Of a stretch of 64,000 nt of DNA, positions 9,640 through 9,728 are shown one piece after another (position 1 is the first letter of the stretch; each line of letters opens with the position of its first letter). The notes beneath the pieces are model-generated. The model did no database searches and was not told where the DNA came from. It worked only from the letters and a program-made list of their open reading frames with translations. Source of the stretch: Clostridiaceae bacterium (GTDB taxonomy: Bacteria > Bacillota > Clostridia > Tissierellales > Sporanaerobacteraceae); the NCBI GenBank assembly GCA_019391515.1, contig JAHXQP010000029.1, positions 1 through 64,000 of the forward strand, in the 5' to 3' direction. Both the position numbers and the translations under genes were made by a program.

Positions 9640-9728
9640 ATATTAATAGAACCAATTATAATGGAATGTAAATTTATATTTATGTTCTATAGAACTAAAT
9701 TTTAATAGAACTATATTAGAATAAAAAA
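9640..9728 (+). ncRNA. Degenerate mini-CRISPR (psiR1-psiS-psiR2), candidate CreA/CreR-like crRNA-like guide RNA
   Basis: psiR1 ATATTAATAGAACCAATTATAATGGAATGTAAAT (9640-9673) keeps TTAATAGAAC and GAATGTAAAT of the array repeat exactly; psiR2 ATTTTAATAGAACTATATTAGAATAAAAAA (9699-9728) is 24/30 identical to CTTTTAATAGAACTAAAGTAGAATGTAAAT; 25-nt psi-spacer between them. Confidence 0.75.

Follow-up and report, generated by a model that had tools for sequence, protein, structure and literature searches.

A single CRISPR-like guide unit upstream of a type I-B cas operon in a Clostridiaceae bacterium: a probable CreR/CreA-type guide

Upstream of the type I-B cas operon of a Clostridiaceae bacterium (Tissierellales, Sporanaerobacteraceae; assembly GCA_019391515.1, contig JAHXQP010000029.1, positions 1 to 64,000, called here the window) lies a single unit of two degenerate CRISPR (clustered regularly interspaced short palindromic repeats) repeats, psiR1 and psiR2, around one short spacer-like segment, psiS. 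It occupies 9643-9728 of the plus strand, between the upstream side of cas6 and the gene of a WYL-domain regulator. The comparison of genomes makes it very probable that this unit is a CreR/CreA-type guide, that is, a gene for an RNA resembling CRISPR RNA (crRNA) through which the effector complex Cascade would repress its own operon, and a CreR function is the most likely one in this genome. A sequence-only reading of this DNA had already proposed such a guide, and the proposal is now supported by the finding that 15 of the 16 units collected from the window and other genomes have a seed match of 9-10/10 beside a CCN protospacer-adjacent motif (PAM) in the upstream region of the adjacent cas/WYL genes. 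The target in the window (9557-9584, about 90-117 nt from the element) goes beyond that reading. The parts of the unit are as follows.

9643-9673, plus strand: psiR1, a degenerate repeat with a loop 4 nt longer, source of the 5' handle.
9666-9673, plus strand: predicted 5' handle of 8 nt, ATGTAAAT, identical to the 8 nt of the array repeat and presumably released by Cas6 cleavage.
9674-9698, plus strand: psiS, a 25-nt guide that pairs with 9560-9584.
9699-9728, plus strand: psiR2, 24/30 identical to the array repeat, with its final 8 nt decayed; it would supply the 3' handle.

The crRNA-sense repeat of the array is CTTTTAATAGAACTAAAGTAGAATGTAAAT, and a second array with the identical repeat lies on another contig. 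psiR1 consists of TTAATAGAAC (9643-9652), the 11-nt middle CAATTATAATG and GAATGTAAAT (9664-9673); the middle of the array repeat has 7 nt (a difference of +4), the repeat has kept its final 10 nt, and the stem is CCA/TGG versus CTA/TAG in the array repeat. Both 10-nt repeat ends around a 4-nt insertion had been described before and are indeed present; ATA at 9640-9642, with which the proposed unit began, adds nothing. The 24/30 agreement of psiR2 was confirmed by base-level comparison; outside the array, no other stretch of the 63 kb matches the repeat as well (the next scores are 22 and then 20), and a score of 24 was reached in 1 of 200 first-order Markov simulated sequences of this length. 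GAATGTAAA occurs twice in the same 63 kb, counting both strands, and solely at the copy in the guide unit does repeat-like sequence follow within 40 nt. The psi-spacer has the 25 nt assigned to it previously, versus 36-40 nt in the array spacers of this genome, whereas the piece of repeat core noted within it, ATAGAACTAA, is not conserved (TATTAAACTAA in Anaerosalibacter massiliensis) and looks incidental. Two further observations concern the repeats. The hairpin of psiR2 is longer than that of the array repeat (-4.5 vs 0 kcal/mol) because of its loop TAT, which is found again in psiR2 of six other genomes, and the minus strand of psiR1 with the 4-nt insertion reads CCATTATAATTGG, which resembles CCATTATAATTATGG of the target (9557-9571).

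On the side toward cas6, the target of psiS overlaps a promoter-like site.

9557-9559, plus strand: PAM, CCA; CCN stands beside the target in 15/16 units.
9560-9584, plus strand: protospacer-like target of psiS, paired at nt 1-5, 7-11 and 13-17.
9575-9603, minus strand: promoter-like site toward cas6, ATAACA-17-TATAAT (10/12), with its -10 within the target.

The target reads CCA TTATAATTATGGTCTATTATAATTA (9557-9584); the three paired blocks are exact, and the mismatches fall at nt 6, 12 and 18. The 2.84-Mb genome has a single copy of CCATTATANTTATG, the cas promoter region being the sole site with CCA and the seed. The target covers the -10/start region of the promoter-like site that reads toward cas6; since such sites are no commoner here than in shuffles, its position weighs more than its score. 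The palindrome ATAACATTTGTTAT (9590-9603) lies over the -35 of this promoter and resembles one arm of an inverted repeat in the cas6 leader; it is possibly the operator of the WYL regulator. As for the PAM, CCN is known from Clostridium I-B systems (PMC8482600, PMC8406132). One array spacer has an 89% phage match flanked by CCT, consistent with a CCN PAM, and a low-complexity match, seen in two near-identical phage records, has a flank that is not CCN; with few phage matches of array spacers overall, the PAM assignment rests mainly on the literature and the 15 targets. That the guide acts mainly on something other than cas, such as a gene at a distant locus, is very unlikely: a seed match CCC TTATATTTATG does exist in an intergenic position upstream of an M3-type peptidase gene on contig C19, but YCN-flanked seed matches number 7 versus 4 in a reversed-pattern control, near chance, and in relatives the only site conserved beside the guide is that at cas. 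No second genomic target stood above chance. The CCC site itself lies at C19:38980-38993 (L125 1501-1514), between the peptidase gene and an open reading frame (ORF) of 492 aa.

Type I effectors pair with their targets leaving every sixth base out. In haloarchaeal CreA, positions 6 and 12 are unpaired and the required pairs are 1-5 and 7-11 (PMC8501985), and these latter positions were the seed in our target search around each element. Seed perfection is partly circular, as positions 1-5 and 7-11 were used in selection; positions 6, 12, 13, 14 and 18 were not, and among 15 guide-target pairs they are mismatched 7, 10, 1, 0 and 10 times, respectively. Pairing fades beyond about nt 17-21 across the 15 pairs, and the whole pattern is the every-sixth-base signature of type I. 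The best seed site was preceded by CCA every time in the first nine genomes, and two later genomes have CCC and CCT as target PAM. Re-pairing of the guides with the regions of other genomes reached a maximum sum of 107 in 50,000 tries versus the observed 115, a figure that is not a strict probability because close relatives share near-identical guides; in a CCA-only permutation L090, L091 and L092 fell below the threshold, two of them explained by CCC/CCT and L091 not. As far as can be judged from the genomes compared, the matching guide-target pairs in relatives show a real regulatory gene, not CRISPR debris.

The 16 units come from 8 families of the order and one metagenome-assembled genome outside it. 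A psiR1-psiS-psiR2 unit beside cas6 or WYL-cas6 was found in L036, L038, L041, L042, L043, L045 and L049, further units (L090, L091, L092, L093) when 250 genomes of the order were searched by pattern, and three more with other repeats (L109, L110, L111) by the rule of handle, seed and CCN alone, applied to the remaining cas6 loci. Array repeats could be read for two of the last three, TGTATTAATAGAATCAAAATGAAATGTAAAT and TGTTTCAATAGAATCAAAGTGAAATGTAAAT (..AATAGAATCAAA.TGAAATGTAAAT), and the psiRs there resemble them; in general, the psiRs track the array repeat of their own genome. The handle TGTAAA stands in psiR1 of all 16 units and is lost from psiR2 in all, so that the intact 5' handle and decayed second handle earlier remarked in the window are true of every member. 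Conservation of the repeat-like halves in relatives had been named beforehand as a check, and they are conserved in the 16 units with guide and target changing together. Psi-spacers have about 16-29 nt versus array-spacer medians of 35-37 nt. No strict-handle match was seen in 20 control windows, and a strict pattern search of 394 genomes of the class, with a pattern that demands the letters of this repeat, returned no members outside the order. In L049, two transposase-like ORFs (14509-15955, IS30-like by eye) separate the guide unit from the cas6 target, and the match is still 10/10.

Conservation was also compared with A. massiliensis ND1, the closest relative found (cas6 identity 90%). Identity is 96.5% over the 86 columns of the element (psiR1 97%, psiR2 100%) and 93% over the 27 of the target, whereas the intergenic region is otherwise diverged with many indels: identity is 59-79% in other parts of the leader and directly upstream of the element, and 82% in the cas6 5' untranslated region with its inverted repeat. 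A functionless, decayed relic of a CRISPR array would explain the imperfect repeats, the short spacer and the position outside the array, but such a relic is most improbable given a conservation far above that of the flanks, a psiR2 core (AATAGAACTATATTAG) shared with six further genomes with mostly different loops in their arrays, a handle spared in psiR1 and decayed in psiR2 of all units, and spacers that remain matched to a PAM-flanked promoter site. Equally hard to sustain is the idea that a DNA-binding regulator, for instance the neighbouring WYL protein, uses the repeats as operators and that their CRISPR likeness is superficial. The WYL gene does adjoin the element in most relatives, and palindromes TAACAwwTGTTA occur at the promoter and in the cas6 leader, but the CCN rule, the 6-nt mismatch rhythm, the one-sided conservation of the handle and the array-tracking repeats would be left unexplained.

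What the guide would repress depends on the genes and the leader around the target, which in the window, a contig end, are arranged as follows.

8600-9331, minus strand: cas6, which opens the operon and is the presumed processing enzyme.
1129-8588, minus strand: the remaining type I-B operon, cas8b, cas7 (Cst2), cas5b, cas3, cas4, cas1 and cas2.
9758-10708, minus strand: WYL-domain regulator, adjoining the guide element in most relatives.
9449-9484, minus strand: mini-ORF MVILIKSFLLK, 11 codons, candidate creT-like element; it lies in the leader that separates the target from cas6 and is accompanied by an A+T hairpin.
9491-9496, minus strand: Shine-Dalgarno sequence of the mini-ORF, AAGGAG.
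9341-9389, no strand assigned: 16-bp inverted repeat TATAACAATGTTACCA...TGGTAACATTGTTATA, just upstream of the cas6 ribosome-binding site.

The operon is complete, with the CRISPR array after cas2; the names cas8b, cas4 and cas2 rest on position and general features. The distance from target to cas6 varies among relatives. In L038, L041, L049 and L092, only 14-24 nt separate the target from the cas6 start, which leaves no room for a toxin; a TTGACA/-10 promoter stands just upstream of the target, and cas repression is the sole plausible outcome there. The distance is 59-107 nt in L093, L109, L110 and L111 and about 195-262 nt in the window (leader of about 225 nt), L040, L042, L043 and L090, and in L036 the target is upstream of the WYL-cas promoter. 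Since no terminator was seen between the mini-ORF of the window and cas6, transcription from the target promoter probably continues into cas6 here as well. A stem-loop stands just upstream of the cas6 ribosome-binding site in 5/5 long leaders (in L040 an inverted repeat, by eye). The minus-strand RNA of 9330-9400 has a folding energy of -23.5 kcal/mol (z -4.8); the inverted repeat is largely kept in A. massiliensis, and its place in L042, L043 and L090 is taken by a strong, unrelated hairpin, AAAGCTGTA...CAGCTTT.

On this reading, repression would proceed as follows. Cas6 would cut the transcript within psiR1 and psiR2 and yield a short guide resembling a crRNA, headed by the 5' handle AUGUAAAU, so that the predicted RNA begins AUGUAAAA and continues with psiS. 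This guide would load into the I-B Cascade and bind the CCA-flanked site at 9560-9584 through nt 1-17 with every sixth base unpaired. With a guide of 25 instead of 36 nt and pairing that ends at about nt 17, the R-loop would be incomplete, Cas3 would not be recruited, and the chromosome would be spared. The bound Cascade would cover the -10/start region of the promoter reading through the leader into cas6-cas2 and would thereby limit its own synthesis, while competition of crRNAs for Cascade, or its removal by an anti-CRISPR, would de-repress the operon.

The leader also allows a CreTA system, in which the guide represses a toxic mini-gene (9449-9496) and loss of Cascade frees the toxin, perhaps alongside cas repression; we consider this possible but rather unlikely. 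The layout is the same as that of Acinetobacter I-F CreTA (a 33-bp mini-ORF with a Shine-Dalgarno sequence, past the target and divergent from creA). The Shine-Dalgarno sequence, start codon and stem-loop are the critical parts of H. hispanica CreT, and a Shine-Dalgarno sequence, an ATG and a hairpin are present here. Moreover, a strong Shine-Dalgarno sequence (AGGAG/GGAGG) lies 50-69 nt past the target in 4/5 long leaders, usually with a mini-ORF, each with a 6-11% chance in shuffles. Against this, conservation is comparatively low in the mini-ORF region (62.5% in A. massiliensis, which keeps the Shine-Dalgarno sequence but has ATT instead of the ATG start), no rare-codon run was noticed in the mini-ORF, the lack of a terminator before cas6 means that cas would be repressed too, and the four relatives with the shortest leaders have no room for a mini-ORF.

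Comparison with described systems gives a similar picture. Like CreR of types I-B, I-E and V-A, the element would provide a crRNA-like RNA beside cas genes: it is a single degenerate unit with repeats of the cognate array, and psiS is partly complementary to a cas promoter region beside a PAM known from the literature. That the target promoter transcribes cas is clear in the four short-leader relatives; in the window the leader intervenes, and the leader mini-ORF, the enlarged psiR1 loop and the neighbouring WYL regulator are differences from CreR. In haloarchaeal I-B CreTA (H. hispanica, H. hubeiense), psiR1 gives the 8-nt 5' handle and psiR2 the 3' handle (PMC8501985); the handles and the pairing of nt 1-5 and 7-11 beside a PAM are alike here, and the promoter is a candidate for that of a creT. 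Unlike the haloarchaeal case, the PAM is CCN rather than TTC, the mini-ORF has no two consecutive rare codons, and several relatives have no toxin-sized gap. Acinetobacter CreTA shares the strong-Shine-Dalgarno mini-ORF past the target (PMC10097628), but it is of subtype I-F, its mini-ORF is conserved while that of the window is poorly so, and here the downstream gene is cas6.

Several points weigh against a CreR-type guide. RNA production, Cas6 processing, binding, repression and absence of cleavage are all inferred. The promoter of the guide itself is weak and ambiguous; an alternative -10, TATAAT, lies at 9657-9662 within psiR1.

9609-9639, plus strand: candidate promoter of the guide gene, TTGTTT-19-TAAAAT, weak and putative.

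No intrinsic terminator follows the guide unit within the window, and the strong-Shine-Dalgarno mini-ORF in the leader points to CreTA as well. The element is present in 14/31 genomes of the order with this cas6; none was found in the other 17, where some loci are clipped by contig ends, and it is lacking in the close relatives L098 and L099, so it is not essential. For the unit of L091, no cas6 was found in the genome and no CCN target was seen; it is possibly an orphan after cas loss, or the genome is incomplete. The L091 unit (5814-5869) is complete, and its seed is nearly identical to that of the window. No Rfam family matched the element.

We found no report of such an element in this lineage in the open-access papers searched, a set that does not include the primary CreR paper. 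A CreR-type guide here would carry crRNA-guided self-regulation into an entire order of anaerobic Firmicutes, and a computational test of handle, every-sixth-base-free seed and CCN PAM finds members despite differing repeats. Because relatives differ between target and cas6, the question of CreR versus CreTA is directly testable, and genome editing with native I-B systems in these bacteria would have to reckon with a built-in repression of cas. More tentatively, one inherited guide gene may have switched jobs within this order, between CreR acting directly on cas6, a CreTA-like form in which a mini-ORF has been inserted behind the guide target (window) and a form like CrePA, the CRISPR-repressed protein toxin; if so, the locus would be a natural series in which autoregulators and CRISPR-addictive toxins interconvert. 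The likeness to CrePA comes from L045, where a separate ORF of 94 aa has the guide target at its promoter region, while the window has nothing of that kind. This ORF matches no Pfam/NCBIfam family, and 250 genomes yielded no good homologue. It spans 1983-2267, is followed by a terminator-like hairpin, lies apart from the WYL-cas operon, and is a candidate CRISPR-repressed protein.
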